From: a virus | IMG/VR virus record: IMGVR_UViG_3300010392_000437 | Coordinates: 1 to 27,299 of that record | Length of the DNA: 27,299 bases | Strand: one strand, 5' to 3' | Shown here: positions 5,737 through 25,011 of the stretch, piece after piece | Position numbering within the stretch: position 1 is the stretch's first letter | How the letters are laid out: every line of letters begins with the position of its first letter | Position numbers and translations under genes: made by a program | Notes under the pieces: generated by a model | What the model was told of the DNA's origin: nothing | The model's input: the letters and a program-made list of their open reading frames with translations, nothing else | Databases searched by the model: none

Positions 5737-7069
5737 ACGAGGTGCTTCTGATATACCCATTCTCAGACTAGAAGTCCTTCAGGGCTTCATGACCACGTTT
5801 ATGAACGCCCCGAAGTTTTTTATGATGAACCTTTTTCCCTCATCCAACTCGCCCTCATCCACTGTAAAGTGGGAGAGTCAGCGAGGCGGGAGAGCAATGG
5901 CTCCGTTCCTTCCCCCGGGCGCCCCTGCTCATGTAACTGCTCCGCATGGTATCGCGGAACATTACGCTGAGGCTGCTTACTGGAAGGAGAAAATGCCCTT
6001 TGACGAGGAGTTTTTAAATAATCTTCGGAAACCGGGCACAACGGCAGACTACCAAACTGCCGAACAAAGGTTGGCGAGAGAACTTGCCGGACTTTCCTGG
6101 CGATCTGATCGTCGGAAGGAATGGATGTGGACCCAGATGATGTTTAACAATGGGTTTACATACCACGTGAAAGGCGGGTACCGTGTCACCATCGACTACG
6201 GGATTCCCTCTGATCACAACGTCACGCTCGCCAGTGCGTACAACTGGAACGATGGTGGCAGTAAAAACATTCTGGGTGACATCCAGGATGCGAAGATCAA
6301 GATCCGCAACGACTGCGGTGGAATGATCAATGTCGCCATTTGTAATTCCGAGGTATTGAAACTGTTGGCGAATGATACAGCAATTCGTCAGATCCTGCGG
6401 CGAACCGATTTCATGCGCGGTTCCGGCGGGGCAGACGGTGGAAACCTCTATTCCGGCAATCTCCACGACCTGATTGGTGTCAATCCCAAGGTCATCGGGG
6501 CTCTGCTGGATATAGACGCCTTTTATGTCTATGATGAAATGTACGAAGTCAGGGGCTGGCTCACAGCTGGCGTCACGGGCGGTTCCACAACGTGGATCTC
6601 CGTCGATGAGGCGACCGACTTTGAAGCCAACCAGACTTTGCGTTTCTGGGATTCCAGTGCCGGCACTTACGAGGATGTTTTCATCCTGGCAGTTAACCAC
6701 GAAGCGGGCACCATCCAGATCAGTACTCCGCCCGTCAATTCCTATCGTGCGTCCGAAGATTATGTCACCATGCAGAAATACTATGTCCCGTCGGACAAGT
6801 TTCTGATGATGGCTACTTCGGTCGACGGACAACCGATAGCCGAGTACAAGCAAGCACCGTTCGGACTGGGTCGTCATTGCGGTCAATACACCGATCGACA
6901 TGACAACTGGGATCCTGAGGTCACATGGATCCGCTGTCAGGACAAGGGGCTTCCCATTCTCTATAACCGGGATGCCGTCTATATCTTGACCGTGCAGACC
7001 ACGGCAGCAGGTGCCGCAACCAGCACCACCACAACTTCTTCATCCTCGACTACGACTACCACAGCGTAA
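5732..7069 (+). CDS. Major capsid protein, lambda gpE-like, with a Thr/Ser C-terminal tail
   Basis: This 445-residue protein forms the icosahedral shell. Its N-terminal region (PKFFMMNLFP, VKWESQRGGRAMAPFLPPG) and the following helix-rich segment (LAGLSWRSDRRKEWMWTQMM) fit the lambda gpE capsid family rather than the short HK97 gp5 type, as does the late motif IAEYKQAPFGLG. Residues about 273-350 look like a beta-rich insertion between two capsid segments (TTWISVDEATDFEANQTLRF...TIQIST). The chain ends in a 16-residue tail of Thr and Ser finishing TTTTTA. The tail is clearly distinct from the folded body, and the same ending appears in four other virion proteins in the window. Position after the decoration gene and a strong leader agree with an abundant product. 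Confidence 0.85.
   Translation: MPRGASDIPILRLEVLQGFMTTFMNAPKFFMMNLFPSSNSPSSTVKWESQRGGRAMAPFLPPGAPAHVTAPHGIAEHYAEAAYWKEKMPFDEEFLNNLRKPGTTADYQTAEQRLARELAGLSWRSDRRKEWMWTQMMFNNGFTYHVKGGYRVTIDYGIPSDHNVTLASAYNWNDGGSKNILGDIQDAKIKIRNDCGGMINVAICNSEVLKLLANDTAIRQILRRTDFMRGSGGADGGNLYSGNLHDLIGVNPKVIGALLDIDAFYVYDEMYEVRGWLTAGVTGGSTTWISVDEATDFEANQTLRFWDSSAGTYEDVFILAVNHEAGTIQISTPPVNSYRASEDYVTMQKYYVPSDKFLMMATSVDGQPIAEYKQAPFGLGRHCGQYTDRHDNWDPEVTWIRCQDKGLPILYNRDAVYILTVQTTAAGAATSTTTTSSSSTTTTTA
7019..7066 (+). repeat. Thr/Ser tail coding sequence of the major capsid protein
   Basis: Sixteen codons, only Thr or Ser except the last, which is Ala: TSTTTTSSSSTTTTTA. All four Thr codons and several Ser codons are used, so the peptide, not the DNA, appears to be kept constant. 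It lies in frame immediately before the stop codon. Confidence 0.9.
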
Positions 7070-7091
7070 TTGGGCTAAGGAGGCAATCGAT

Positions 7092-7370
7092 ATGTCAATC
7101 GAAAAGGTTATGCTAAAAGTAACCCTCAAAGCAGGGAAGAATGTTTGGGAGGAGGGGAGTGTCTTAACGGCACCCCTTCCCCCCGACATTCTCGATGAAA
7201 TTTATCGACAGACTGGAACCGTCGCCGTAATTGAAGGTGACCAAAGGAATCAAACCAAATTAACTTTTGTTGCTCAGAGGGTGGAGGAGACGGCGAGTTC
7301 AATGACCACAATGCAGACACCCCCACCCGAGAACAGCAGACCAAAGCCCAAATTAAATAGAAGGAGATAG
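7092..7370 (+). CDS. Small head-tail region protein, unknown function
   Basis: A 92-residue protein starting at an ATG ten bases after AAGGAGG. I do not recognise a family. The first 60 residues look folded (VMLKVTLKAGKNVWEEGSVL, PPDILDEIYRQTGTV), with a pattern of short strands and a helix similar to small proteins encoded next to capsid genes in other siphophages. The last 30 residues are polar and Pro/Lys/Arg-rich (PPPENSRPKPKLNRRR) and probably disordered. It is two bases from the next start and shares its transcript with the capsid and connector genes, so a role in head completion is plausible but not shown. Confidence 0.6.
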   Translation: MSIEKVMLKVTLKAGKNVWEEGSVLTAPLPPDILDEIYRQTGTVAVIEGDQRNQTKLTFVAQRVEETASSMTTMQTPPPENSRPKPKLNRRR

Positions 7371-7372
7371 TA

Positions 7373-7834
7373 ATGTCATTGACGAAACAGCAGATGGTGA
7401 CCTTGATAGAGAAAGAGGTAAAGGGGCTTACCAACTATCTGGATTCTGATGACTACAACAATGCCTGTGACGATGCCTCAAGAGAAACAGGCTTTTCATA
7501 TCCAGTCGCAGATGGTTTCGCCACTCTCTGGGTGAAATCCAGAGCCAAAAGGCATATCTTCTTTTATCTCCTCACCGAGTCTGCCCACAAATTCAAGTAT
7601 GAACAGATCAACCTCCAGCACCGTTTCGAGCATTACAGAGACATTATCAAGTATATGGACGAGCAATGGCAAATCGCTCAGGAAGAAAATGCTCTGGAAC
7701 TTGCTGGAGTTAGTGGGGTTAATGTACTCGGTACGAAGTTTGATGCAGGATTCGCCTACGAGTCTCAGACGGGTCGTGATTTTACTTATAACGATGGAAA
7801 CGTGACCATTGTCTCACCAAAGGATACTGACTAA
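7373..7834 (+). CDS. Head-tail connector adaptor (HK97 gp6/SPP1 gp15-like)
   Basis: This 153-residue protein occupies the position of the first connector ring beneath the portal. It is mainly helical: an N-terminal helix (TKQQMVTLIEKEVKGL), a segment YNNACDDASRETGFS, then a long helix around ATLWVKSRAKRHIFFYLLTE. This is the pattern of the adaptor family, in which four or five helices bind the portal clip. Its C-terminal 40 residues are more polar and probably extended. The ribosome site GAAGGAGA precedes the ATG. The stop codon overlaps the start of the next gene by one base (TAATG), the usual coupling between adaptor and closure genes. Family inferred from helical pattern and order. Confidence 0.65.
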   Translation: MSLTKQQMVTLIEKEVKGLTNYLDSDDYNNACDDASRETGFSYPVADGFATLWVKSRAKRHIFFYLLTESAHKFKYEQINLQHRFEHYRDIIKYMDEQWQIAQEENALELAGVSGVNVLGTKFDAGFAYESQTGRDFTYNDGNVTIVSPKDTD

Positions 7835-8559
7835 TGACCATCGGACCAGATATTAAGGAAGCCATTGTCGAAGTTGGTCTAAGTTATACAATAATCAGGG
7901 ATTCAGGTAACTTAACTGATAATTGGATGACCGTCAAGCCCAATGAACAGGTCACGAAGCCCTTTATCCGTGAGTATTTTTTAGAGGCTCAAATCGTCTA
8001 TGACGCTCCAACTCTTGCCGGCGATATTATCCAATTTGATACCACTGGAGAGCGTTATATTGTAATGCACTTTACGCCCACCTTATTCGAGAATACAATC
8101 ATTCGATATGAGGGGGTACTGTATAAGACCAACGTTAAAGTATCCATACTGCGTCCGGGAGAGAGAAGGAATCCAAATACTCTTGTCATGGAGACCTATT
8201 GGAACATCGTGCGAGAGGACGCGGACCTCCTTCTCACAACCCCTTTATTCGGGCAGGATCTCGAAACGCAGGAAGAATTAGGCTTGCTTGGAATAGAATC
8301 ACATGAAATCTGGTGTCCCAGCATTTACGGCATCGAACATCTTGATCGAATTAGAGTCACATCTGGTGTTGGTGTTGGGGATTACTGGAGATCGATAGCG
8401 ATTAGGAAGTATCGTTTTCCAGAATGTGATGTGGTAAAGGTTGATGAGGATACGAGACCGACAACAACAACATCTTCCTCATCTACCACTACGACTACCA
8501 CAACTCATACAACCACTACAACCACAGCAAGCAGTACCACAACTACCACGACCGCATAA
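7834..8559 (+). CDS. Head closure/connector-like protein with a Thr/Ser C-terminal tail
   Basis: The 241-residue product follows the adaptor and should form the next ring or stopper at the neck. Its body (about residues 1-208) is beta-rich, with segments VGLSYTIIRDSGN, AGDIIQFDTTGERYIVMHF and YEGVLYKTNVKVSILRPGE. These resemble the small barrel of the SPP1 gp16/HK97 gp7-type closure proteins, although this protein is longer than that family. From residue 210 the chain is Thr/Ser with one His and two Ala, 32 residues ending TTTTTTA. A tailed neck protein is unusual. It has no in-frame alternative explanation, and the tail is directly joined to the folded part through DEDTRP. Exact connector subtype is uncertain. 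Confidence 0.6.
   Translation: MTIGPDIKEAIVEVGLSYTIIRDSGNLTDNWMTVKPNEQVTKPFIREYFLEAQIVYDAPTLAGDIIQFDTTGERYIVMHFTPTLFENTIIRYEGVLYKTNVKVSILRPGERRNPNTLVMETYWNIVREDADLLLTTPLFGQDLETQEELGLLGIESHEIWCPSIYGIEHLDRIRVTSGVGVGDYWRSIAIRKYRFPECDVVKVDEDTRPTTTTSSSSTTTTTTTHTTTTTTASSTTTTTTA
8461..8556 (+). repeat. Thr/Ser tail coding sequence of the head closure protein
   Basis: Thirty-two codons, all Thr or Ser apart from one His, one internal Ala and the final Ala. The last nine residues read SSTTTTTTA. Codons are mixed (ACA, ACC, ACT, ACG). The sequence reads directly into the stop codon. Confidence 0.9.
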
Positions 8560-8580
8560 AGAGTATGTGGTCGCCTTATA

Positions 8581-8603
8581 AGTCTGTGCAAGAGGTACAG
8601 ACT
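8581..8603 (+). other. Intergenic hairpin
   Basis: AGTCTGT (8581-8587) and ACAGACT (8597-8603) are perfect reverse complements around a nine-base loop, within the 69-base gap after the tailed closure gene. No T-run follows, so it is not a standard intrinsic terminator. It could be a processing or mRNA-stability element separating expression of head genes from the smaller downstream genes. Confidence 0.45.
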
Positions 8604-8628
8604 ATTTAGCAAGCGTAGGAGGTTACGC

Positions 8629-10028: not shown

Positions 10029-10249
10029 ATGTTATTGATGTGTACCCAAAAGAGGTTCATGCAAACTTGGAAATATCAGTTCAGGAGATTGCTCATATCC
10101 TGACTTTCTATGATGATGCGCGGCCCTTATATGATAAAGTCTATGCTGATCAAAGGAGCGAAGAAGGAGAATATATGGCAAACGAGTTTATAGCTAAACT
10201 CAGACTCATATTTGACGATGTGAGGAAAGGAATCAAAAATGGCGCTTGA
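10025..10249 (+). CDS. Small acidic protein of unknown function
   Basis: A 74-residue product, starting in an ATGA overlap with the previous gene and overlapping the next by 11 bases. It looks like two helices (VHANLEISVQEIAHILTFYD and EYMANEFIAKLRLIFDDVRK) separated by a short charged loop. No family is recognised. The tight overlaps on both sides and the preserved frame support a real gene. Small helical products are common in this location in siphophages, but no function can be assigned. Confidence 0.55.
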   Translation: MNVIDVYPKEVHANLEISVQEIAHILTFYDDARPLYDKVYADQRSEEGEYMANEFIAKLRLIFDDVRKGIKNGA

Positions 10250-10700
10250 TGCAACAGCCCGAGAAGCCAACATTTGGGATAGTATTAAGAAGTTCTTTTT
10301 GGACAACTTAACGGCGTACCCAGTCAGTTTCGACAAGTCTCTGTCTGCTCCTGAGACGGCTGGGAAAGCAACCGACCGTTGGTATTCTGTTACTATGGGG
10401 AGTGCCCAGTTGACCGATATGTCTTCCATCATCCTTGATGTTTTTGTGTGTTCACAGCAGGACAACGAGTGGCACAAAAATGCACAGATGAAGGACACGG
10501 TGATGGAAGTGCTGACCGACCCAGATCAAACTGATACAATGAGGCGTATACCATTCTATCAGAGTCATCCAACAGACCCTTGGACTTTACTGGGAGCAAT
10601 CCTTGTAACTGAGATAATCGAATCTCCGCGAATGGAAGCGGTAGACGAAACCAAGTATAAGATATTGCATTGTACTTTGAGAACGGCATCGAAGGTGTGA
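10239..10700 (+). CDS. Tail terminator-like protein
   Basis: This 153-residue protein lies just upstream of the major tail gene, where siphophages encode the terminator ring that stops tail-tube polymerisation and joins the head. The N-terminal helix (REANIWDSIKKFFLDNL), the strand pair around RWYSVTMGSAQLTDMSSIIL and the late segment LLGAILVTEIIESPR followed by YKILHCTLRTAS fit the alpha/beta terminator fold (lambda gpU or SPP1 gp17 type) in order and length. An AGGAAAGGAA site precedes the ATG. Assignment rests on fold pattern and position, not on a diagnostic motif. Confidence 0.55.
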   Translation: MALDATAREANIWDSIKKFFLDNLTAYPVSFDKSLSAPETAGKATDRWYSVTMGSAQLTDMSSIILDVFVCSQQDNEWHKNAQMKDTVMEVLTDPDQTDTMRRIPFYQSHPTDPWTLLGAILVTEIIESPRMEAVDETKYKILHCTLRTASKV

Positions 10701-10702
10701 CT

Positions 10703-11035
10703 ATGGCTAAAAAAATGTTCCTGTATTGTGAAAAATGCGGAAAGCGAGTCCTTGAAAGGATGCCCAATGGTCTTTTTAAATTTGTATTCGGACGTAATCA
10801 AAATGATCCAGGCAAACCTCCAGTTGAGATGTTCATACATGGTTCCCTTAAGATGCGTTGTTTAAGGAGATCATGTAGGACGGAGAAGCCTGATCATTGG
10901 AACGTATTTAATTTTTTTCCTCATTCTGTTCCAAAAGTTGCCCACAAACAATCGGCAGACCAAACCGAAGACGAGGAATCAATCAGCTCTGGGCAGGCTG
11001 AACATTCTGGCATTGGTGATAACATTAACACTTAA
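10703..11035 (+). CDS. Zinc-ribbon protein with a disordered tail
   Basis: A 110-residue protein. The ATG at 10703 follows an AAGG site and the previous stop codon by two bases; an upstream in-frame TTG at 10670 lacks a ribosome site. The N-terminus has CEKC (C9, C12) and a second pair, CLRRSC, about 40 residues later, a possible four-Cys zinc site. The middle reads like a short beta hairpin (GLFKFVFGRN, VEMFIHGSLKMRC). The last 35 residues are acidic and polar, without hydrophobic core. This is the second Cys-pair protein among the small genes here and it may be a regulatory or assembly factor. No specific family is recognised. Confidence 0.62.
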   Translation: MAKKMFLYCEKCGKRVLERMPNGLFKFVFGRNQNDPGKPPVEMFIHGSLKMRCLRRSCRTEKPDHWNVFNFFPHSVPKVAHKQSADQTEDEESISSGQAEHSGIGDNINT

Positions 11036-11053
11036 CAGAAAGGAGTAAGGCTT

Positions 11054-11695
11054 ATGGCACGAACAGGTCCTTTGACCAAAGACACCACCACCATTGCTCT
11101 CGGTTTGGCTCAGATTCGTATTGGTAATTCTCCGAACAACATTACCAAAGAGAATCCCGTCCTCGCCGTGAGTGCTTCACTTGGTGCTCTGGCGTCAACC
11201 ACATTTACGTCTAATTCCGAGTACTTCATGCTGGAGTCAGGTTATCCACTGCTTGAAGATGCGACCTATCCCTTGCGGGAGAAGGCGATGCTCGAATGTG
11301 CCTTTAAAGAGATGACCCCTGCGAACTTTGCGTTGGCGAAAGGTCAAGATCCATCGACCTACACCAGTGTTCATACGGGTCGTGTCGCTTTAGGTGCGAT
11401 TTCAACCCCTGAGTTCGTGCGTATGGAGGCTATCTATACTTATCCTGATGGCGTCAATACCATGGTAATGCTCTTTCCGAGAGCCCAGGTAACCTCAGCC
11501 ATTGAGGCTGAATTTGCGGAAGAAGAGCCGGCAGCCGTTGCCGTGCAGATCGAGGCAAAGAGAGCAGACAGTGGAATCACCGACGCTGATAACCCTGGCA
11601 ACGCCGCGTGGGATGATCAACCTCTCGGAGTCATCATCTGGAATGATGGTTCAACTTACACCACCACCACGACAACCACAACCACAACTGCATAA
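11054..11695 (+). CDS. Major tail tube protein with a poly-Thr C-terminus
   Basis: This 213-residue protein is placed before the chaperone-frameshift pair and tape measure, exactly where siphophages encode the tube subunit. Segments such as TTIALGLAQIRIGNS, KAMLECAFKEMTPANFALAKG and EFVRMEAIYTYPDGVNTMVMLFPRAQV fit the beta-sandwich tube fold, including the typical FKEMT-x-x-N helix region. The final 11 residues are ten Thr and one Ala, joined to the folded part through WNDGSTY. The strong AAAGGAGT site supports high expression. As hundreds of copies line the tail, even a short modified tail would cover the tube surface. Family call good; tail function unknown. Confidence 0.78.
   Translation: MARTGPLTKDTTTIALGLAQIRIGNSPNNITKENPVLAVSASLGALASTTFTSNSEYFMLESGYPLLEDATYPLREKAMLECAFKEMTPANFALAKGQDPSTYTSVHTGRVALGAISTPEFVRMEAIYTYPDGVNTMVMLFPRAQVTSAIEAEFAEEEPAAVAVQIEAKRADSGITDADNPGNAAWDDQPLGVIIWNDGSTYTTTTTTTTTTA
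11660..11692 (+). repeat. Poly-Thr tail coding sequence of the major tail protein
   Basis: Ten consecutive Thr codons then Ala, directly before the stop. ACC, ACG, ACA and ACT are all used. Compared with the Thr/Ser tails of other genes in the window it is the shortest and has no Ser. Confidence 0.9.
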
Positions 11696-11720
11696 AAACA
11701 ATCCTGTAAAGGAGAAAGTA

Positions 11721-12251
11721 ATGCCAGAGACTAAAAAGAAGGATAAATCTGTAAAAGTTCAGGACGTCAATCCGCAGGTGAAGAGCATCAAACTTGGTGT
11801 TCGGACCCTGCGGAAGATTACCATTTACCCCTTGTCTGTTGCAGACCAGCTTGAACTAACAGACATGATTACGGAAGCTGTCGGTGTGTTTTTCAGCCTT
11901 GATGCTGAAGGAAAGATGGAAGGTGGTCCTCCGATGGAGTTTGTGGTCTTCGTGTTTGAATTGATCAAATCAAATATTGGGGACATTGTGACGAAGGTCA
12001 CAGGTGAAGAGGATTCGGATGCCATCTTGTCAGACATGACCAATGATCAGTTAACCTCGCTCATTGAGATTGTGTATAAGGAGAACTTCGAGGGCCCTTT
12101 CGGGAGGCTCGTAGACCTGTTCCAGACGGAGGAGAACGAGGAGACGAAGGTCGAATCGATCTTGGCGAAATTGCAGCCACAGTCTGTCGAGTCTACGGAG
12201 GATACCGCCTCGAACACTTCTTCCAAAGAAGCTACTGGGAAGGAGGACTAA
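11721..12251 (+). CDS. Tail assembly chaperone, gpG-like
   Basis: This 176-residue protein lies between tube and tape measure genes, the invariable position of the gpG-type chaperone that coats the tape measure during tail assembly. The N-terminus is basic and polar. The core (LRKITIYPLSVADQLELTDM, FVVFVFELIKSNIGDIV, LTSLIEIVYKENF) is mostly helical, as in other tail chaperones. Its last 30 residues are low in complexity (SVESTEDTASNTSSKEA) and look like a linker. The ATG at 11721 follows AAAGGAGAAAG. A second frame, open across its 3' end, continues in -1 phase, giving a longer gpGT-type product. Confidence 0.75.
   Translation: MPETKKKDKSVKVQDVNPQVKSIKLGVRTLRKITIYPLSVADQLELTDMITEAVGVFFSLDAEGKMEGGPPMEFVVFVFELIKSNIGDIVTKVTGEEDSDAILSDMTNDQLTSLIEIVYKENFEGPFGRLVDLFQTEENEETKVESILAKLQPQSVESTEDTASNTSSKEATGKED
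12092..12101 (+). promoter_or_regulatory. Candidate -1 ribosomal frameshift site
   Basis: GGGCCCTTTC carries two overlapping heptamers of the X XXY YYZ form in the chaperone frame: G GGC CCT (12092-12098) and C CCT TTC (12095-12101). Slipping back one base at either would move ribosomes into the frame that stays open to 12484. No other in-phase heptamer was found between here and the chaperone stop. The site is 150 bases from the stop and not of the common A-rich or lambda GGGAAAG type, so it remains a prediction. Confidence 0.5.
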
Positions 12252-12484
12252 CTGTAAAGCAAGCCTCCGCGCTTTACAATAGTTTCCAAGAAAGTGAATA
12301 CAATCGTTTCGTTTTGGATGCAAAACTGAGAGGTGTTGACGTGGAGAAAGAAGTTAAGAAAGCCAAGAAAAAACAAACGTTCACATTCCAAGATCCAAAG
12401 GAATACGAAAAAATGCCAATTGAAGAAAGGAGAGAACTCACCGACCAAATGTTAGGCGCACACAAGAAACGATTTAAAAGGTAA
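12101..12484 (+). CDS. -1 frame extension of the tail chaperone, gpT-like
   Basis: This frame is open from 12080 to the TAA at 12482-12484, but has no ATG, GTG or TTG before TTG at 12311, so it is expected only as a -1 fusion to the upstream chaperone (127 plus 127 residues if the shift is at the GGGCCCTTTC site). From about 12191 the peptide looks genuinely coded: a helical segment with aromatic residues (YRLEHFFQRSYWEGG), then LTVKQASALYNSF and a Lys-rich helix (EVKKAKKKQ). Downstream half-proteins of gpGT type commonly have this look. It ends five bases before the tape measure start. Nearly all tailed phages with long tails have such a shift. Confidence 0.68.
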   Translation, partial: REARRPVPDGGERGDEGRIDLGEIAATVCRVYGGYRLEHFFQRSYWEGGLTVKQASALYNSFQESEYNRFVLDAKLRGVDVEKEVKKAKKKQTFTFQDPKEYEKMPIEERRELTDQMLGAHKKRFKR

Positions 12485-12489
12485 AAACA

Positions 12490-15400
12490 ATGGCTGATAG
12501 ATCATTGACGCTTGGCACCCTATTTACTGCGAACGCCACGCAATTCATCAGTACCGTAGATATGATGAAAAAGAAGGTAGGACAGTTAAATGCTACCTTC
12601 GCTTCGGTAGGCAAAAAGGGTGCCAAAGGTATAGATAAGGCATCAAGTTCCGTCACTCGGCTTGGCAAATCGATGGACAAAGCCTCTGGTCAAGCAGACA
12701 GACACAAAAAGAGTTTGCGTGGAGTGGCTGGTGCTCTTGATAGAATCAAGGCTGCGGCGAAGATTACGGCTGCCTTTGCGGCTGCGGCTGCTGCTATAAC
12801 AGCGGTCACGACTGCCTTGCGAGTAGGTTTAAAAGAGATCGTTGACTATGACCAGGGCTTGAAGAACCTGCAAGCTATTACCAATTCGACTGACCAAGAA
12901 GTCGCCGCTATGGGTGAGACTATTAAGGATGTCGCCCGTACCACGAAGTTTTCCACAGCAGAGGTTGCGGAGGGCATGACTCTCTTGGGTCAAGCAGGTT
13001 TCAGCGCCACAGAGTCCATTCAGGCTATGCAGTCGGTTGCTGATCTGGCAACAGGTACTCTGTCTAATATGCAGTTTACCACAGACTTGATGACCACAAC
13101 GATTCGAGCATTTGGCATGAGTACCGTTGAGTCCACCAAGGCGGCAGACATCATGGCAAATGCGATCAATAGATCGAAATTGACCATTGATAAATTGCGT
13201 ATCGCTTTCAACTTCGTGGGTGCCGCGGCTCACCAAGCAGGTCTCACCCTTGAGGAAACAGCCGCAACTATGATGGTGCTTGCTAATCAGGGTCTCCGAG
13301 CAAGCACAATCGGTACAGGTCTCCGTCAGGTACTCTCTCGACTCCTTGCCCCAACAGGGAAACTGCGTGAGGAGTTTGAGGCAAACAATATTGAACTCGC
13401 TAAGGTTAATCCATCCATTGTTGGATTCCGTCAGGCACTTGAAAATCTCCTACCAGTCATCTACGATCAGGCAGATGGTACAGTCGATATGGCAAAGGCT
13501 TACCAACTGTTCGGTCTCAGGGGTGCCCAAGCAGCCGCTGTCCTTGCATCATCTATCGCCTCAGGTAACTACGATAAGATGTTGGATTTGACGTATGAGA
13601 CAGGAACAGCGGCACGAATGGCAGCCAAGCAGATCGAAGGTCTTGGTCTCAAACTAAAGAATATGGCAGATAGGGCACGACTGATCGCTGTGGCTCTGGG
13701 TGAAGCAGGGTTGATTGGTGCTCTTGGCGCCCTGCTTGATATGCTAAAACTATTGTTTACCGGCATTGAATCCTTCATCAACACAACGTTTGGTAATCTA
13801 TTAGTATCATGGATAGGATGGACAGTAGTCATCATGTCCAGCATCAAGGCTATTGATTTACTTGCCAGGTCTGTTCTTTGGCTTGGTAAATCAATTGGTA
13901 CCCTTATTACTAAGATATGGGCAGTCATCACTGCCCAAACCTCTTTAAATATCGCCCTTAAGACTGGAACCAAAGCGGCGATAACTTTTGGTACATCAAT
14001 GAGTATTGCTCTGTGGCCCCTGACCCTTATTGTTGCGGCTATCGCAGCAGTAGTTGCGGCTATTGGTTTATGGGTGACCGCAGGTCAACGTAGAATCAAG
14101 GCTTTGGAGAAAAGTCAGTCCCTGACCACAACTCATCTTGCTACCTTAAAATTATACGCTGGGGTTCTCGATGATTTGGCAGAGAAACAGGGGAAGGGTG
14201 CAGATATAACGAAAGAACATGGCAGAGCCATTAACCGCATGACCTCCGATGCAAAGAAGTTAAAACTTCAATTGGATTTAACTGGCGATTCCCTTGACGA
14301 GCATAGACAGTCGGTTGAGGAAGCCTTCGCAAGGGAAACTGAAATAGCAGTAGCCAGGCAGATTGAATTGATTAAAGAATATAAGGAAGCGGTTGAAGAT
14401 GCTACGTTCTGGAATGGTGTCTGGAACTTAGGCATCGCCGCCCTCACACAAATATGGACAGATTTCGTTGCTATCCTCAAGCAGACATGGGACCTGTTTC
14501 CAAGTAAAGCAGATTGGGCGTGGTTGGGAGACATAATCGATGAATACACTGGACTTGGTTGGGCGTTTACTTCAATCTGGGGGAAAATTGAGGCCCAGTG
14601 GGATAAGGCAGCCGCTTCGTATAAGGGCCTGATAGATCAGTACGCCGAAAGTTCCGACACGATATTGAATAAACAGGAGGAAGTCAATCAGGCGTTTGTT
14701 AGATTGGCGAAGATATTTAGCGAATCAAAGGAGTTCAAAGGAAGACCTCTTGGTGATGTCATTGACGCGGTGAACGAGATTGCAAAGAGTCTTGGCGAGG
14801 AACTGAATACAGCTACAATAGATCAGATCAATGAGGCACTTGGTGGAGTCACTCTGAAACTGAAAGAGGAGCAGAGCAAGTGGAAAGATAGCATTGATCA
14901 ACTCCCGGTCTACTTTCAGGAAATGTATAAGGACATGGACGGTCTGAGGAAAGCAAACTTTGCTAAGGCTATGAAGGCGATGCAAGCAGAGTTAGCTGGC
15001 TTTGAAAAGATGGCAGACCAGATGAACCTGTCGGATGAGGAACGTGCGGAAGCCAGAGCCGCTATCAGGGCTAAACATCTTGTCAAGTTTGAGTCAGATC
15101 AAAAGAAGGAGGCTAAGGTAACTGAGGAGAGTGTGAATGATCAACTCCGCGCCTTAGATATTCTTGCAGAGGGCACCGAAGAGATGTACCACAGACGCAC
15201 TACGTCCTTGATAAATCATTATCTAAAGCAGGCTGATTTAGCTGGGGATGATAAAGAGAAGTTGCTGGAATTGGAAAAAGAGTTCAACGAGAACATCAAG
15301 AAAGAGCAAGCCAAGCTAAACAAGGAATTGTTGAGTAACGATAAACAGAGGCATGCACTTACTCTCCAACTGCAAAAGCAGACTGTGGAGGAGATCAAGA

Positions 15401-16584: not shown

Positions 16585-17327
16585 TGGCTAAGATCCGAAT
16601 ACTACCTTTCAATGTATTGAGTTTGGACACATCAGCGGTAGCGGTCACAAGTACTCCTGATTCAGGTTACCCAGAAGTGAGACTCTATGACCACTCCATT
16701 GACTTCTATTACAAGAGAACTGCTGTTGGTGACTGGGAAGTTGTTTGTGATCAGGGAGCAGGAGTAGACTGGCCCGTGGTTAATACCCTCTTGATCGATA
16801 GGCACAACTTCACAGGGAGAACAATCACGTGGGAGTACTCTACCGATGGTGCTGTTTATAATGATATGGTTCCAAGTTGGGTTCAAGGTAATAACCTGCA
16901 GATCGTGAAGGAGAGCGAGATTACCACAGCCTATAGGTATCATAAGCTGAAGGTCGCAGGTGCTGTGAACCCAACCCTAACAGAAGTCTACATGGGTGGT
17001 TACTATGAGTTCAAGGTACGCTTCGATGATCCTCCAGAAGAATCAGATATTGACAACATTGTATGGCAGGCAACGCTTGGGGGCATTGAGAGGTCAACCA
17101 AACTTGGTGATGTTCGGAGAGGACGTCAATACTCCTTGTTCCTCTATCCTGAGAAACTGGTAGAGTGGAGGGAGTTGGTCGTTTATTTAGATCAGTACTC
17201 GAAACCGTTTTATATAAAAGACCACGAGGATGATTACTGGTTTGCACGATTCAGGGCATTGCCAGTTGGAGCGTTTATTACCGAACAACAGCAAGAGAAG
17301 GACATTGAATTTTTGGAGATCCTATGA
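16584..17327 (+). CDS. Distal tail protein
   Basis: This 247-residue protein follows the tape measure, the position of the distal tail ring (Dit type) that joins tube to hub. The ATG at 16584 shares one base with the tape measure stop and is preceded by GGGGGAAG; an upstream in-frame GTG at 16569 lies inside the tape measure end and is less likely. The N-terminal half is beta-rich (SIDFYYKRTAVGDWEVV, TITWEYSTDGAVYNDM), and the C-terminal half includes a segment GGIERSTKLGDVRRGRQYSL and KPFYIKDHEDDYWFARFRAL typical of tail hub-ring proteins. No Thr tail is present. It ends in an ATGA overlap with the hub gene. Function inferred from position and beta pattern. Confidence 0.65.
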   Translation: MAKIRILPFNVLSLDTSAVAVTSTPDSGYPEVRLYDHSIDFYYKRTAVGDWEVVCDQGAGVDWPVVNTLLIDRHNFTGRTITWEYSTDGAVYNDMVPSWVQGNNLQIVKESEITTAYRYHKLKVAGAVNPTLTEVYMGGYYEFKVRFDDPPEESDIDNIVWQATLGGIERSTKLGDVRRGRQYSLFLYPEKLVEWRELVVYLDQYSKPFYIKDHEDDYWFARFRALPVGAFITEQQQEKDIEFLEIL

Positions 17328-20182
17328 GAACACTTAGCGCATTTAATCAGGCGGCGATAGATAACCCAAATGTTTCGCCAATCAAGTTGGTTAAAATTGA
17401 GTTCGACGGTCTCACCACGTACTTTTGCGATAGAGCATTTGGAGACCCAGGCTCAGTTTTCATTTTTGATAGCCAGATATATGAACCTCTTGTCCTTGCG
17501 TGGGGAGATTTACAACAGGGAGAAATAGGTCAGCTTGGGAGTGCTGGGTCACCCTCTGACTTCTCTTTTAGGGTTGACAATACGGTCGCCGTCGCAGGAT
17601 TCGATTCATTCACCTCAATCTTTGCCTTTTATAAACCCATCTATTCGACGGTTACCCTCTATGAGATATATGAGGGAGCAACCAGTGCCGCTGACCTTAT
17701 AATTCGATTCATAGGGACGATTGAAGACCTTGACATGGAATTGGAATACGTCAATGTCAACTCTACCAGCCTTGAGATATCCATATCTAACCAATTCTTG
17801 GTCGAAATGTGTAATGAGGATAACTATCCAGAGGCTGACCCTGATGATTGGGGCAAGATGCTCCCTATTGTTTACGGTTCAGGTCAACGGGTTCCTTTTT
17901 TGAGTGTCGATGCAGGGGCAATGGATGTTCTGGCAGAGGACATCAATTCTTCGATGACTGAGTTTGATGGTTCCGATCTATCGAAATTCCCTCAGGGTGG
18001 GGGTACCATTCAGATTGACTTTGAAACGATGACCTACAACTATATCGATGGGAACACATTTAAGGGTGTAACAAGAGGGGTGGATGATGTTGATCCGCCC
18101 GCCACTTCCCCTGCCCCACATGATACAGGTGCAACGATAGCAGAGATACAGACAGAATATTTTTTCATACTGGAACATCCGATCAAATCCTTTGGTGGTG
18201 TCTATGTAGTCAACAGGAACAACGATGAGAATGTCCTCCAGCATCCTGACATTTATGATCTCTATACAGGACAGTCAGGTGACGAACACGCAAGCTATCC
18301 AGGCAAAGCAGTTATTGTATTCAATACCTTACCAACGATTGCTCCTCAAGTCAACCTTGATGTGGATGATACCATTGATGTGGATGATACCATTGATGTG
18401 GATGATACCATTGGTGTGGTAGATCCTAAGCACGTTCACGGGGGTAACGCCTATGGTATTTGGCATTGCGAGTGGGGATATAATAATGACTCTGCAGGTC
18501 TCGGTCCTCCGTATGACAGTGGTCCAAGTGGTTGCTGTGATGGAAGCCTCTCAACCTATACTGTTTTCTATCATGGTCAATCATCACTTGACACCCAGAA
18601 GATATATTCAGAGGAACTCGGATCATTACCGTTATCTTATCGTCTTAACTACTTGCAGGACTTTTGTGATAATGGTGTTGCTGGACGGTACGAATGGAAC
18701 AATAGGAAGGTTGACTCGCCATACGGTTCAACAGGTATTTTTCGCAGTACCTGGTATACTGCACCATGGACAAACTGGTCACAGATTCAAACGCTAAGGG
18801 GACACCTCGAGAATCGTGCATCATCTGGGCAGCCAGGATGGGTTCAAATGCGTGATAGTTGGATTGAGTTTGTGCAATATGAGGTGACACCAGACTATTC
18901 AAATGCCAGCAAGTCAGGTGCCGCAACGAAAGATGGTTCAGCAGATAAAGTAGGTACAGTTGAATTAGTAGGCAACAGCGTGGCAGATACAGTCATTGGA
19001 GGTCAGGTAAGTGCTGATGTCAATGGGTGGGAATCTGATGATACAGACTACGGAACTGTGGGTTCCCTGATCGAAAGACCAGATTACATATTCAAACACT
19101 TTCTTGTCAACTATTGTGGGCTTACGGTAGCTGATAATATTGACGCTACCAGTTACGCAGAGACAGGAGCCTTGTACGAAAACGATAATGTGCAATTAGC
19201 GGTCGTTCTTTTAGAAAGACCTGATATGCGAGAGTTCCTTGCCTTGATCGCTCAAATGTGTAAATCGTATGAGTTCTGGGAATCAGGTAGGCATCATCTG
19301 CTTAGGGTGCCTGTATCAGAAACCTCAGATAAGGTGATTGAAGGTGGTAGAATTGACATCGATTCGGTGAAGGTGAGATATACTCCAAGAGATCAGATCA
19401 TTAATAAATTTACCATCAACTTTGACAAGCATTGGATAGGTGACTTCTCCTCTGATATTGAATCCTACAGAGGGATAGTAGTTGTGGAATCCACCCCAAG
19501 TCAGACAATCTATGGTGTACTTGAAGGTGACCCATACAATCTCCCCTACGTGAATAACAGCACACAGGCACTACGGCTTGGCAACTGGTTCCTTGACGAT
19601 CAATCTACTCCAAGACTTATTGTTGAATTTACAGGAGGTGAGTACCTCGCAGAGATGGAGAAAGGTGACATCATTGAATTTACCTTTGAGGATGGTGATG
19701 AATTAGACAGGAGACTGTTAGGGCTCGTGGTCGCAGATTCCGATCAATTCAGAATCATGCGAATGACGCAGACGGAGAGGGGGAGGTTCTTTATAGAGGG
19801 ATACTTCGTGGTTTCATCAACGTCAAGTACTGGCACGTTTTATCCTGCGGAACTCAATGATGATGGTTACACACAAGGGGCAAGTTTTTTCAATACCACA
19901 GTGGCGAATATGATAGGCAACTATACTGGTACCGCTTTTACTTCGACCACTACAACCACAACGAGTTCAACGGTGTCAACGACCAGTACAATATCAACAA
20001 CCAGTACAACCCACAGTACAACATCGTCCAGTACCACAACAACGACAACGGCATCAACGATCAGTACAAGCAGTACCACGAGTTCGACGGCATCGACCAG
20101 TTCCACATCGTCTACAATGAGCACCAGTAGCACCACTGGAACGACCTTAACAACGTTTAGCACTACAACCACAACGGCTTAA
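17324..20182 (+). CDS. Tail hub protein with an 80-residue Thr/Ser tail
   Basis: The 952-residue protein probably forms the tail tip hub to which fibres attach. Residues 1-195 are a beta-rich hub domain (IKLVKIEFDGLTTYFCDRAF, then WGKMLPIVYGSGQRVP, a motif common in siphophage tip proteins). Residues about 205-270 contain FPQGGGTIQIDFETMTYNYI and GVTRGVDD, a small beta module frequent in tail hubs. A DVDDTI hexapeptide repeats three times at 346-363. The middle (365-560) is a Trp/Tyr/Gly-rich insertion, perhaps carbohydrate-binding. Residues 570-830 (IDSVKVRYTPRDQIINKF, YLAEMEKGDIIEFTFEDGD) resemble gp27-like hub cores. From 873 to the end everything is Thr/Ser with scattered hydrophobics, ending TTTTTA. 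No catalytic domain is seen. Confidence 0.68.
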   Translation: MRTLSAFNQAAIDNPNVSPIKLVKIEFDGLTTYFCDRAFGDPGSVFIFDSQIYEPLVLAWGDLQQGEIGQLGSAGSPSDFSFRVDNTVAVAGFDSFTSIFAFYKPIYSTVTLYEIYEGATSAADLIIRFIGTIEDLDMELEYVNVNSTSLEISISNQFLVEMCNEDNYPEADPDDWGKMLPIVYGSGQRVPFLSVDAGAMDVLAEDINSSMTEFDGSDLSKFPQGGGTIQIDFETMTYNYIDGNTFKGVTRGVDDVDPPATSPAPHDTGATIAEIQTEYFFILEHPIKSFGGVYVVNRNNDENVLQHPDIYDLYTGQSGDEHASYPGKAVIVFNTLPTIAPQVNLDVDDTIDVDDTIDVDDTIGVVDPKHVHGGNAYGIWHCEWGYNNDSAGLGPPYDSGPSGCCDGSLSTYTVFYHGQSSLDTQKIYSEELGSLPLSYRLNYLQDFCDNGVAGRYEWNNRKVDSPYGSTGIFRSTWYTAPWTNWSQIQTLRGHLENRASSGQPGWVQMRDSWIEFVQYEVTPDYSNASKSGAATKDGSADKVGTVELVGNSVADTVIGGQVSADVNGWESDDTDYGTVGSLIERPDYIFKHFLVNYCGLTVADNIDATSYAETGALYENDNVQLAVVLLERPDMREFLALIAQMCKSYEFWESGRHHLLRVPVSETSDKVIEGGRIDIDSVKVRYTPRDQIINKFTINFDKHWIGDFSSDIESYRGIVVVESTPSQTIYGVLEGDPYNLPYVNNSTQALRLGNWFLDDQSTPRLIVEFTGGEYLAEMEKGDIIEFTFEDGDELDRRLLGLVVADSDQFRIMRMTQTERGRFFIEGYFVVSSTSSTGTFYPAELNDDGYTQGASFFNTTVANMIGNYTGTAFTSTTTTTTSSTVSTTSTISTTSTTHSTTSSSTTTTTTASTISTSSTTSSTASTSSTSSTMSTSSTTGTTLTTFSTTTTTA
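18359..18412 (+). repeat. 18-bp tandem repeat, three copies
   Basis: GATGTGGATGATACCATT occurs three times without a mismatch and a fourth time in decayed form (GGTGTGGTAGAT...). It encodes DVDDTI repeats within the hub protein. Perfect identity suggests recent slippage duplication. The unit length, six codons, is the same as that of repeats in the Thr/Ser arrays, although the sequence is unrelated. Confidence 0.9.
19940..20179 (+). repeat. Thr/Ser tail coding sequence of the hub
   Basis: Eighty codons of Thr and Ser with isolated Val, Ile, Ala, Met, Leu, Phe, His or Gly. Non-Thr/Ser residues recur about every six or seven positions in its central part. The last six residues are STTTTTA minus the first, that is TTTTTA, followed by the stop. 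Codon use is mixed. Confidence 0.9.
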
Positions 20183-20184
20183 TT

Positions 20185-23100
20185 ATGGCATGTTCAGTAT
20201 ACGGTTCAGATGTGACATGGGAAGGGGGTTACTCAGCCTCCAGTGAATATGGTAGTGGTATTGTAGTTGAGGATGCCTTTGATGATGACGTTGATACCTA
20301 TTGGTTGACTCTATCTGGTCAGATGAACAACAGTTGGATAGTGGTTGATTATGGTGCTGGTAACGAAAAGCAGATTGAAAAATATAGGTTCTATTTTTCG
20401 ACTGCGAGTTGGGAACAGTATCAACCAAAGGACTTCCAACTGCAGGGGTCGAATACAGGAGCGTTCAGTGGTGAAGAGGATGTTCTCCTTGACGTAACTG
20501 GTATGAGTTATCCCACACAGCCTCAATGGTACGAGTGGGAATTTGTGAATGGTACCAGTTATCGTTATTATAGGCTATATATTTTCGCAGTGGTAAGTGC
20601 CACGAACTACGCTATGGCCCGAGAAATCGAGATGATGGAGTGTGCGGTGGCTGTAAGTACCACAACCACAAGTAGTACCACAACCACAAGTAGTACCATA
20701 TCGACTACCAGTACCATATCGACTACCAGTACCATATCGACTACCAGTTCAACTGCATCAACAACCAGCACGGTTAGTACCACATCATCTACCGCCAGCA
20801 CTTCAAGTACCATGAGCACCACGTCCTCTACGGACACAACATATACAGGTTACACATACCCATCGACTACCACTTCATCGTCCAGTACCAGTTCCACAGC
20901 AAGCACAACCAGCTCCAGCAGTTCAACTGCTTCCACTATATCAACAACCAGTACACAGTCAACGACCAGTACACAGTCAACGACCAGTAGCACCTCGTCC
21001 ACTGCTTCGACTACATCCAGTTCCACGAGTTCAACTACCACAACAACTACCAGTACCAGCAGTTCCACATCATCAACAGCCTCAACGCTTTCCACGACAT
21101 CATCGTCCAGTAGCACAACTTCAACCACAGGACCCAATACCTCTTTTTGCGTATTCAGAGATGTTGCAATACCAGAGCAATCCCTGATTACCAGAGCGAA
21201 TGTATACCTTACAGCCCACAAGAGTGATATACCAACACCTGTATTCACACACGTTTATTTTTCAGCGGAGGATAACCCATCCCCTCCAGTCGATAAAGCT
21301 GATTTAGATGATAGACCGAGAGACAACTACATGCCATGGACTATACAGGCACCATGGTTTGATAATGTTATCTATAAGTCTCCTGATCTATCGGTCCAGT
21401 TGCAGGAGATTGTTGACAGAGCAGGCTTTATCGAAGGCAACAATGTGATGGTGATGTTAGAACACTTGTGGGATACTTCGATACCTAATTATTGGTACTA
21501 TGTTTCGTCTGCCCTTTCTGCGTATAACGCTTGGAGCATAGGACCGTATCAAAACCCAAATCAGGACAGGGCTTGGCCCTCTCATGCGTGGACAAGATTT
21601 GCGAATTGTACTATACCACAAGGTGCTACCATTACAAGTTGCGTGTTTAGATTATATCAATATACGGTGGATCAGGATGTTGATTCGGATATCCGGTTAT
21701 CTTTTTATAGAGGAGATAATGCCTTAGATATTGCCACCGCTGATGCTGAAGAGGCAACCACCCGTGCCGCCGAGAACAATACTGACATACGCACGGACGG
21801 TGTTACATGGAACGTAACTACTCCTTGGGTTCAAGGGAATTATTACAATACACCTGACCTTACCACTGAACTTCAAGAGATAGTGGATAGACCGGGGTGG
21901 CAGTCAGGTAATGATCTTGCTGTATTCTCCCATAGTCTTTATACTCCAGACATGTGGCCCAATAATTTAGAGGGATTTGATAAGAGAAGATGGACAGGTT
22001 TTGAAGCCGCATCTGGCAACAAGTTTCGGCTTGCAGTTACATGGACAACAGGGTCAGGGAACTTTTATGTTGAATTAACGGAAGCGCAATGGTCTGCACA
22101 ATTCTTCTCATGGCGTTGGAAATTATATGATCCATCTTCGGTGGAGGCTCAGAGGTTCTGGTCAGCCATTGAATATCGATTAGGAATTGAGAGGGCTTGT
22201 TTGAGGGCACACTGGCGAGCGGCAGAGAGGATTCAAACACCACGCATAGATCCTCAAGAGGAGTTCCAGTTAGATGATTTCTTTTGTTCGATTAGCACCT
22301 ACCCAACAGATGCAGACATATATTATACAACTAATGGTTCCGATCCAAATGAAAACGATACTTTGTACACCGTGCCTTTTGAGATTACCTTCGATACAAC
22401 AGTTAAGGCGAAGGCATACAAACAGTACTGGATACCAAGTTTTGTAGCCACAAAAGACTATGAGACATTATTTGTGTCCTGTGATCTTCCAAAACCGACG
22501 ACTGTATGGCCCCACAATTCTTTTCTCATAGCCAATAACGGATACAACGGATGCTTTGGTTTAGGTCTTGAAATAACGGACGATGGTACTGCCCATTTAT
22601 TCTATAAGAAACCTCAAGGCTCACATCTTTACCATATGTATGGTCCCGCCGATGGTTCAAGCTGGAGTTCTGAGGTGATGATCTATACGGATCCAACCGA
22701 TGCTTCTTGCTTTGTTCATAAGGTAAATACTGCCCATGAAGGTAACAATGTTTATATCAGCTTCCTTAAATATGACGCCTCCCCATCTTTTCACAATCAA
22801 AAGGCTATATGGATGAAGTGGAGTGGTTCTTCTTGGTCCTCACCCGAAGATTGGAGACCCTTATACTTTTCTGCTCCTAATTGGGGTATTGCGGTTGATA
22901 GTGCAGGGGTTACCTACATTCCTTGTCGAATAACACCATATTATGGGTACGTTAGGAGAAGTGCTGGAGGCTCCTATAGTTTCGTGCAGGTACATAATGA
23001 CTTCTCTACCAATATGTATCAGATGCAAGTGGTAGGTAGTGATCTTTATATAGCGTATGATCGTGGGCTCACCGCCGCTCAAAATGATATATATTCAGAT

Positions 23101-23634
23101 GAAGGAGGGAGTTGGGCGTTCAAAGAATCAATCACCTGGCCCGAAGGACTATATCAGTCATCAGGTCGATTCTCAAATATGGATTGGTTCCGTTCAAATG
23201 GAACCCATCTTGCTCTACTGGGTTCTCCATATGCTATATCTGGCGCTCTTAGCTATCGAGAGATAACCCCTGCTGATAACATCTCAGGAAGTTGGAATGT
23301 ATGGGATAAAATAAATTGTGGTGTGACTGGTGAAAGACTGTCTGGGACCTCACAGGGTACAGATTTAAGCCAGTCTGGTGTTCTTTACCAAGTTCAAACG
23401 TATGTCGAGTACCCATCACCTTATGAGTATTTCTTCTGGGTAACGAGAGGAACACGGACTGGTGGATTTACCAGCTATATTGTTGATGCTCCGCCATCTG
23501 ATTACGTTAGGGATTACTCAGTGGTAGGACGTGTCAATCCAGCAACTGGCAAATTCTCATTCATTTCAGGTGAAGCAAATGGTACTATAGGATCTGGTAC
23601 TGATTACGATGTGTTATATAGGGTGGAAACCTAA
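20185..23634 (+). CDS. Multidomain tail fibre/adhesin with an internal Thr/Ser linker
   Basis: This 1149-residue protein is built as a mosaic. Residues 8-152 form a discoidin (F5/8 type C)-like domain (ASSEYGSGIVVEDAFDDDVD, SWIVVDYG, WYEWEFVNGTSYRYYRLYI). Residues 158-315 are Thr/Ser-rich. Residues 316-450 and 452-625 are two copies of a beta-sandwich like DNRLRE/phage-type repeats (FRDVAIPEQSLITRANVYL; FANCTIPQGATITSCVFRLY, each ending near LQEIVDRxG). Residues 683-763 match the chitobiase C-terminal-like fold (ADIYYTTNGSDPNENDTLY, TVKAKAYK). The remainder has repeating Gly/Trp strands of a propeller type (SSWSSEVM, SSWSSPEDW). It probably binds host glycans. The ATG is two bases after the hub stop with no visible ribosome site, so reinitiation is likely. 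No catalytic motif is seen. Confidence 0.72.
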   Translation: MACSVYGSDVTWEGGYSASSEYGSGIVVEDAFDDDVDTYWLTLSGQMNNSWIVVDYGAGNEKQIEKYRFYFSTASWEQYQPKDFQLQGSNTGAFSGEEDVLLDVTGMSYPTQPQWYEWEFVNGTSYRYYRLYIFAVVSATNYAMAREIEMMECAVAVSTTTTSSTTTTSSTISTTSTISTTSTISTTSSTASTTSTVSTTSSTASTSSTMSTTSSTDTTYTGYTYPSTTTSSSSTSSTASTTSSSSSTASTISTTSTQSTTSTQSTTSSTSSTASTTSSSTSSTTTTTTSTSSSTSSTASTLSTTSSSSSTTSTTGPNTSFCVFRDVAIPEQSLITRANVYLTAHKSDIPTPVFTHVYFSAEDNPSPPVDKADLDDRPRDNYMPWTIQAPWFDNVIYKSPDLSVQLQEIVDRAGFIEGNNVMVMLEHLWDTSIPNYWYYVSSALSAYNAWSIGPYQNPNQDRAWPSHAWTRFANCTIPQGATITSCVFRLYQYTVDQDVDSDIRLSFYRGDNALDIATADAEEATTRAAENNTDIRTDGVTWNVTTPWVQGNYYNTPDLTTELQEIVDRPGWQSGNDLAVFSHSLYTPDMWPNNLEGFDKRRWTGFEAASGNKFRLAVTWTTGSGNFYVELTEAQWSAQFFSWRWKLYDPSSVEAQRFWSAIEYRLGIERACLRAHWRAAERIQTPRIDPQEEFQLDDFFCSISTYPTDADIYYTTNGSDPNENDTLYTVPFEITFDTTVKAKAYKQYWIPSFVATKDYETLFVSCDLPKPTTVWPHNSFLIANNGYNGCFGLGLEITDDGTAHLFYKKPQGSHLYHMYGPADGSSWSSEVMIYTDPTDASCFVHKVNTAHEGNNVYISFLKYDASPSFHNQKAIWMKWSGSSWSSPEDWRPLYFSAPNWGIAVDSAGVTYIPCRITPYYGYVRRSAGGSYSFVQVHNDFSTNMYQMQVVGSDLYIAYDRGLTAAQNDIYSDEGGSWAFKESITWPEGLYQSSGRFSNMDWFRSNGTHLALLGSPYAISGALSYREITPADNISGSWNVWDKINCGVTGERLSGTSQGTDLSQSGVLYQVQTYVEYPSPYEYFFWVTRGTRTGGFTSYIVDAPPSDYVRDYSVVGRVNPATGKFSFISGEANGTIGSGTDYDVLYRVET
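20656..21129 (+). repeat. Internal Thr/Ser array with 18-bp tandem repeats
   Basis: This region encodes residues 158-315 of the fibre. It contains three perfect copies of ACCATATCGACTACCAGT (20695-20748), two of AGTACCACAACCACAAGT (20656-20691) and two of CCAGTACACAGTCAACGA (20948-20983). Hydrophobic or Gln residues alternate at six- and seven-residue spacing through the first half. It separates the discoidin-like domain from the first beta-sandwich. Confidence 0.92.
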
Positions 23635-23643
23635 GGAGTCATA

Positions 23644-25011
23644 ATGGCTAATCGATACTATTGCAGGTTTACGAATGTTATCATCCGCAGGACTTCGGAC
23701 ATAAGGTACTGCTTTGTTCGATTTCTTGCATGGGATGAACAGGTAACAGCCGCTATGCGATTGAACTGTTACTTTGTGGATGAGGATGATCCTGATGCAC
23801 CAGCCAATAAAACTGAATTAGATGCTTTCCCCCTCACGGCTGGAATCGCTTGGGACAATCTGCCTGCATGGTCTGACGGAGCCGAATATCAAACACCTGA
23901 TTTGTCTACCATTTTTGAGTCAGTTACAGATAGAGCAGGATGGGAATCAGGTAATGCTATTATACTGATAGTTGATGACGATGGGACACCTTCAACCGTA
24001 CACCGTAAGGCTTCTGCGTTTGAGTACTTAGGGCACACGGAGAGACCTGCACTAAACGTAGGATGGTACAGTCCATGGGAGACTTTCTTTGACAACACAA
24101 GATGGCAGGCGATGCAGTTGAACCCAGCCACTGTGATTGAAACTGCATGGGACAGCATTAACAACCTGTGGGATTTCAATATAGATTCAACCTCAGATGG
24201 AGGTAGACTTGAGGTAAAGGGGACATGGCACCGTAACTATCAACCAAAAGAAATGATCATACAGCACACCCATGCAGGTACACCTGAGTTGAAAGTCCAC
24301 GCGGCTGATGGTATCATTCATCATTCTTTAGGTTACACATCAGGTACCATCATTACTCCTCTCTGGGCAGGTCGATCAGAAGGTATCTATAGGTTCGAGT
24401 TCCTGTTACCAGCAGGTGATAACACTCCATTTGAAGTCACCGATATTGTGTTCAATAGTGCGGCACCTGCGGCTCAGACAACGACCTCAACGAGTTCGAC
24501 AGCCTCAACAACGTCATCGACTGCCAGTACCACGAGTACAATTAGCACCACATCATCAACGTCATCGACTGCCAGTACCACGAGTACAATTAGCACCACA
24601 TCATCAACGTCAAGCACCTCAAGCAGTACCTCAACGATATCCAGTACCAGTTCGAGTTCCAGTACTGCTTCCACCGCATCGACCTACACAACGTTTAGTA
24701 CCACAACCTGTTCAACCACGACTACTACCACAACGAGTACAAGCACCAGTTCGAGTACCAGTTCAAGTACGTCATCGACAGCCAGTACTATTAGCACCAC
24801 GAGTAGTTCGTCCAGTACTGCATCGACCACAAGCACGATAAGCACCACGAGTACATCGTCCAGTACGTCATCGACTGCCAGCACATTGAGTACCACGAGC
24901 AGTTCCTCAACAACTTCCAGTACTGCATCGTCCACAAGTACGATCAGTACCACGAGCAGTACGATGACATCCACGAGTTCAAGTTCAACTACGACTACAA
25001 CGACGGCTTAA
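23644..25011 (+). CDS. Tail tip/accessory adhesin ending in a 177-residue Thr/Ser tail
   Basis: The 455-residue product starts behind TAAGGAG. Residues 1-140 are a third copy of the beta-sandwich found twice in the previous protein: CRFTNVIIRRTSDIRYCFV at the start and YQTPDLSTIFESVTDRAGW near the end align with those copies in both spacing and key residues. Residues 150-278 form another probable beta domain with many aromatics (WDSINNLWDFNIDSTSDGG, YRFEFLLPAG). The rest, from 279, is Thr/Ser with isolated Ala, Ile, Leu, Tyr, Phe, Met and one Cys, ending TTTTTTA. It looks like a short relative of the long fibre with the Thr/Ser block moved to the end. A receptor-binding or surface-coat role is inferred. 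Confidence 0.65.
   Translation: MANRYYCRFTNVIIRRTSDIRYCFVRFLAWDEQVTAAMRLNCYFVDEDDPDAPANKTELDAFPLTAGIAWDNLPAWSDGAEYQTPDLSTIFESVTDRAGWESGNAIILIVDDDGTPSTVHRKASAFEYLGHTERPALNVGWYSPWETFFDNTRWQAMQLNPATVIETAWDSINNLWDFNIDSTSDGGRLEVKGTWHRNYQPKEMIIQHTHAGTPELKVHAADGIIHHSLGYTSGTIITPLWAGRSEGIYRFEFLLPAGDNTPFEVTDIVFNSAAPAAQTTTSTSSTASTTSSTASTTSTISTTSSTSSTASTTSTISTTSSTSSTSSSTSTISSTSSSSSTASTASTYTTFSTTTCSTTTTTTTSTSTSSSTSSSTSSTASTISTTSSSSSTASTTSTISTTSTSSSTSSTASTLSTTSSSSTTSSTASSTSTISTTSSTMTSTSSSSTTTTTTA
24478..25008 (+). repeat. Thr/Ser tail coding sequence of the tip protein
   Basis: With 177 codons this is the longest Thr/Ser block in the window. It is built from variations on a short unit in which Ala, Ile, Leu or Thr is followed by STTSST-like residues. 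It ends with SSSSTTTTTTA and the stop. Confidence 0.92.
24513..24608 (+). repeat. Perfect 48-bp tandem duplication within the Thr/Ser tail
   Basis: Bases 24513-24560 are repeated exactly at 24561-24608. The unit starts GTCATCGACTGCCAGTACCA and spans 16 codons. Absence of any mismatch in a region with free codon choice points to a recent duplication, a sign that the array length is evolving now. Confidence 0.92.

Follow-up and report, generated by a model that had tools for sequence, protein, structure and literature searches.

Five virion proteins of an uncultured tailed phage end in a common Thr/Ser-rich tail, and comparison with related and unrelated phages suggests that such tails probably provide proteins on the virion surface with acceptor tracts for O-glycans. 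The tails are present or absent jointly on the proteins of a genome, their peptide is conserved, and they are linked across unrelated phages to a gene for one family of GT4 glycosyltransferase (hereafter GT4). On balance, and with less assurance, we also favor a broader interpretation, that several uncultured lineages have independently fitted a portable Thr-rich C-terminal tag to their outermost virion proteins, that one phage-specific GT4 reads this tag, and that a sister clade has replaced both with a different glycosylation machinery.

Tailed genes of the window

The window, i.e. the whole stretch of DNA analysed, is a 27,299-nt fragment of a tailed-phage genome from an uncultured phage (IMGVR_UViG_3300010392_000437, positions 1-27,299), in which genes for packaging, head, neck and tail are followed by two glycosyltransferase genes. 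A pattern search of the window for (ACN)5-GCN-TAA revealed exactly five matches (7049-7069, 8539-8559, 11675-11695, 20162-20182 and 24991-25011), all on the plus strand and each closing a long ORF; the reversed control pattern had no match in the window. The initial annotation had noted five virion proteins ending in TTTTTA-stop, with Ala codons that differ between the genes (GCG, GCA, GCA, GCT and GCT) and mixed Thr codons, and both observations were confirmed.

These five virion genes, out of about 24, are all located on the plus strand. They encode the major capsid protein (Phage_cap_E, 5732..7069; PF03864, 6e-34; Thr/Ser tail at 7019-7066), a neck protein that is probably the head-closure protein (7834..8559; Thr/Ser tail at 8461-8556), located after the adaptor and having weak head-tail adaptor matches, the major tail (tube) protein (11054..11695; T10A tail at 11660-11692), a probable tail hub (17324..20182; weak PF13550 match; Thr/Ser-rich tail at 19925-20179) and a probable tail tip or fibre protein (23644..25011; Thr/Ser-rich tail at 24472-25008). 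Profile matches support the identities first assigned to the capsid protein and to the major tail protein, in the latter case through the phrog_476 major tail protein profile, matched by 6 of 12 relatives (best 1.1e-5); those of head closure, hub and tip are probable, mainly on the basis of gene order. The tails of capsid, neck and tail tube are short (about 11-32 aa), and those of hub and tip are 85 aa and 179 aa long, respectively. A tail made only of Thr/Ser, as had been described for all five, was found in the capsid protein and nearly so in neck and tail tube, whereas the hub and tip tracts also include A, I, V, M, L, F, H, G and C. Within the window, no tail is present on the packaging enzyme, portal, protease, adaptor or tape measure.

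A tail fibre-like protein (20185..23634, plus strand), with an N-terminal phrog_17517 tail protein match and no C-terminal tail, is encoded between hub and tip; its internal tract of 166 aa rich in Ser/Thr (20647-21144) joins two folded parts and has the appearance of a mucin-like linker. The hub protein contains three in-frame copies of DVDDTI, at about 18350-18410 of the window.

From general virion architecture, the tailed proteins are expected on the outside of the virion. Residues 425-445 were disordered in the AlphaFold model of the capsid protein, the overall confidence of which was low (pLDDT 60). This model is too poor for the tail to be assigned to the outer face, so that tail exposure is deduced from what is known of how virions are built. 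Searches of PDB sequences with the capsid, neck and tail-tube profiles yielded no matches.

Tail distribution in the capsid family

A scan with tail-free capsid sequences yielded 80 capsid-family loci, and a scan with untailed capsids yielded 80 loci that partly overlap the former. When 79 distinct capsid proteins were arranged in a tree, one fully supported branch separated 52 tailed from 27 untailed proteins; all 52 sampled from the window's clade are tailed and all 27 from its sister clade are untailed. Judged from these sequences, the tail is a single change in the capsid family, with no reversal on the capsid tree. With near-duplicates removed, capsid and neck tails were both present in 37 genomes and both absent in 8, with no mixed genome. 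Tail-tube homologues found by the tailed query were tailed in 36/36 cases, and those of four untailed genomes (G069, L411, L416 and L420) were untailed. Since a single event underlies this distribution, the counts describe linkage among the tails and to the clade and are not independent trials. The hub tail is present in some relatives only and the tip tail is variable.

The final Ala, shared by all five window tails, turned out to be the commonest ending in relatives without being universal (44/66 capsid, 27/51 neck and 16/36 tail-tube tails), the remaining tails ending in P, S, T, V or one of a few other residues. It was also noticed that the last residue varies in concert within a genome, HC-TT being identical in 17/26 cases against 9.1 expected (p=2e-4).

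Tails in unrelated phages

Of 119 loci picked by the T5A-TAA pattern, 39 proved to contain a true T-tailed ORF, with two or more such ORFs in 25 of them, in agreement with the co-occurrence that the initial annotation had proposed to look for. When the reversed pattern was used to pick 120 viral loci (989 kb) as controls, none of them had a T-tailed ORF, by which chance and a general low-complexity bias are ruled out. By sequence, the T-tailed proteins form about 26 clusters. Outside the window's family the tail was seen on other folds, for example on a lambda-D-like head decoration protein (phrog_49), on an Ig-type major tail protein (phrog_807) and on tail proteins (phrog_1101 and phrog_1082). 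In the phages of L056 and L013, the decoration protein is tailed and the capsid protein is not, and the closest cultured relative of this decoration protein stops a few residues past the aligned part, with no room for a tail. The head decoration protein in place of the capsid protein as T5A carrier was observed in L056 (2539-3027), L013 and L032. A second style of Thr tract, with C-terminal TTTTTTTAxPTTTTTTT repeats, was seen in L017, L042, L088 and L127, which belong to phages that do not appear to be related to the GT4 group. A literature search of open-licence papers turned up no account of shared Thr tails.

GT4 and its linkage to the tails

The gene of the GT4-family glycosyltransferase (25097..26398, plus strand), the candidate tail-modifying enzyme, begins 85 bases downstream of the last tailed gene of the window and is followed by a gene for a GT2-family glycosyltransferase (26395..27060, plus strand; PF00535, 5e-6), the second enzyme of the cassette. 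As for the CAZy GT4 criteria tested, the structural model of GT4 has a GT-B fold (pLDDT 91.7), and the EX7E motif is present, with Glu332 and Glu340 invariant across 28 homologues. The best PDB matches of the model are GT4 enzymes, including MshA, BshA, PimA and TarM (E down to 4e-12, Z up to 17.5). A GT4 scan made without tail information yielded 35 viral loci. No match was obtained by tblastn in 50,697 cultured-phage records (INPHARED), and the only match in species genomes was a phage-like contig (L185) in a Deltaproteobacteria (Myxococcota) MAG, a host hint too weak for a host to be named.

At seven loci of unrelated phages (L075, L155, L162, L170, L171, L182 and L185), GT4 starts 9-23 nt past a T-tailed stop, and in L152 it starts 96 nt past one. 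A T-tailed ORF was located within 10 kb in 16/36 GT4 loci versus 0/120 control loci (p=3e-12), and in 8/19 of those GT4 loci that are not of the window's lineage (p=3e-8). T5 runs were present in 21/27 whole GT4 records, with almost all of them placed on one strand. GT2 homologues lie near GT4 in L075, L151, L153, L155, L162, L168 and L185, and the cassettes downstream of GT4 encode glycosyltransferases, many methyltransferases, sulfotransferases, hexapeptide acyltransferases and a sugar epimerase/dehydratase.

In the capsid family, GT4 was present in 9/9 tailed genomes of at least 60 kb, in one case through an identical sister contig. That genome (G037, 80 kb), a candidate for a tailed phage lacking GT4, was rejected as an exception, being 100% identical over about 55 kb to G051, which carries GT4 in a 4.7-kb segment of its own. 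The two IMG/VR records (L141-L144, L402 and L309-L311) represent a single phage genome with different cut points, and the G037 contig ends just where the GT4 segment, with the cassette, lies in G051. Some tailed records of 13-44 kb (such as G081 and G084-G088) have no GT4 and are perhaps incomplete. Conversely, three untailed GT4 records (G047, G049 and G059) are fragments in which genes for replication or sugars were seen but structural genes could not be recognised, and one (G058/L176) has tail-like genes but no T-tail; GT4 also occurs away from tailed genes and could have another substrate. The link between tail and GT4 within the capsid family counts as one evolutionary event, and its independent support comes from the unrelated lineages, which are few and fragmentary.

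The untailed sister clade

GT4 was absent from 34 untailed records (21 of up to 90 kb and 13 shorter ones). Downstream of the neck gene, 23/25 untailed loci encode instead a two-domain GT4-GT9 enzyme of about 690 aa, which was found in 0/21 tailed loci. Thus, the change between the clades swapped enzyme and acceptor peptide together, as an enzyme-substrate pair predicts. Relatives with untailed versions of the same proteins and unaffected neighbors had been put forward as evidence against a common tag; the relatives found here went the opposite way, being untailed on capsid, neck and tail tube jointly and also devoid of the enzyme. The GT9 domain is a heptosyltransferase, and the GT4-GT9 sugar cluster was observed in L392/L393 (G069, 10107-24580), L404, L406, L412, L429 and others. 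In G069 the GT4-GT9 gene adjoins genes for a PfkB-type kinase, a cytidylyltransferase-like protein and radical-SAM enzymes.

Possible role of the tails

Because the tail travels together with one phage-specific GT4, the tails most likely serve as attachment points for a coat of phage-made sugars. The tails would be unstructured tracts at the C-termini of surface proteins (capsid shell, neck, tail tube, hub and tip). That GT4 acts on them, and does so as the first enzyme, is an inference, as are the nature of the sugar and the advantage gained by the phage: GT4 may put the first sugar on tail Thr/Ser in the cytoplasm of the infected cell, before or after assembly, and the other cassette enzymes (GT2 in the window; methyl-, sulfo- and acyltransferases in relatives) may extend and decorate the glycan. 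The outcome would be a particle with a mucin-like sugar coat, which might serve for shielding, for binding to particles or the host surface, or for solubility.

Another possibility is that the bare tails act by themselves, as flexible hydroxyl-rich bristles conferring solubility or stickiness to ice, minerals, polysaccharide or the host surface, with the glycosyltransferase cassette serving another target, for example the DNA of the phage or sugars on the host surface. Such bristles would fit the disordered, hydrophilic nature of poly-Thr/Ser, and glycosyltransferase genes are common in phages and present in the untailed sisters as well. However, it is one particular GT4 family, not glycosyltransferases in general, that tracks the tails across unrelated phages, with its gene directly behind the tailed genes, and the glycosyltransferase of the untailed clade is a different one; we regard this explanation as unlikely. 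The initial annotation had suggested a recognition tag for an enzyme or a sorting step. The former gains support from the tight link to one glycosyltransferase family, whereas no linked sorting gene was found for the latter. A T5A end that is recognised at the C-terminus by a protease, a sorting step or an assembly chaperone would agree with a terminal motif common to five proteins and with endings that vary in concert within a genome. But the final residue drifts (A, P, S, T and V) while the Thr/Ser block stays, and what is linked to the tails is a sugar cassette rather than a protease or sorting gene, so that a tag of this kind appears improbable. It is also the case that the near-constant T5A ending exceeds what glycosylation alone explains.

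An origin at the DNA level, either as a functionless spreading repeat or by gene conversion among the tails, would be in line with the ability of low-complexity ACN repeats to expand and with the concerted tail endings within genomes. It is already contradicted by the codon statistics, by which a copied DNA cassette and gene conversion are ruled out, and we consider it highly implausible. At matched positions in different tailed genes of one genome, Thr codons agreed in 31.7% of cases, no more than the 30.3% of shuffled codons (0.317 vs 0.303), and between orthologues of different genomes in 28.4% (0.284); yet the peptide was kept in all 52 capsid proteins. The synonymous positions of the tails are saturated and the peptide is kept, and therefore selection acts on the peptide, as had been proposed initially.

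If glycan attachment to the tails is true, phages, like mucins and bacterial adhesins, sugar-coat the whole particle through a modular peptide tag. The T-tail together with this GT4 would then be an easily searched signature of glycosylated virions in uncultured phages, and glycoengineering would gain a useful tool in a short, genetically encoded tag that comes with its own cytoplasmic enzyme. The tailed and untailed sister clades offer a ready natural experiment on the role of virion sugars.

Comparison with known glycosylation systems

Eukaryotic mucins and mucin-like domains have disordered Thr/Ser-rich tracts with dense O-glycans, but theirs is a secretory-pathway chemistry, unrelated to phage enzymes. 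In serine-rich repeat adhesins (GtfA/GtfB) and staphylococcal SD-repeat proteins (SdgA/SdgB), a low-complexity Ser/Thr tract is glycosylated in the cytoplasm by a neighboring dedicated glycosyltransferase. These enzymes share with GT4 the GT4-type GT-B fold, and SdgB is among the structural matches of the GT4 model (Z 14.4); GtfA is not among the matches listed for it, which excludes nothing. No close sequence similarity was found between GT4 and GtfA/GtfB or SdgA/SdgB. The acceptors differ, those of the bacteria being cell-wall adhesins, whereas the putative acceptor in the window is dominated by Thr and located at the C-termini of virion proteins.

The initial annotation could match the pattern to no described system, a statement that finds no support, since mycobacteriophages Che8, Corndog and Myrna are reported to carry glycans made by phage-encoded glycosyltransferases on the C-termini of their capsid and tail-tube subunits (PMC12619734 and PMC12363180, in passages that cite Freeman et al. 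2023). Like these phages, the window encodes its own glycosyltransferases in adjacent genes (GT4 and GT2, with cassettes in relatives). Its capsid and tail-tube proteins have C-terminal tails, the putative sites of such a modification. However, the capsid, neck and tail proteins of Che8 have no Thr/Ser tail, and its glycosyltransferases gp108-110 showed no significant match to GT4 by BLASTP or profile search. Because Che8 lacks the tails as well as any relative of GT4, the tails and GT4 would work in the manner of the mycobacteriophage system but fall outside it in terms of both enzyme and acceptor. In contrast to that system, one poly-Thr tag is shared by five proteins in the window and unrelated folds are tagged in other phages; what would be new relative to mycobacteriophage glycosylation is a dedicated poly-Thr acceptor tag together with an unrelated enzyme.
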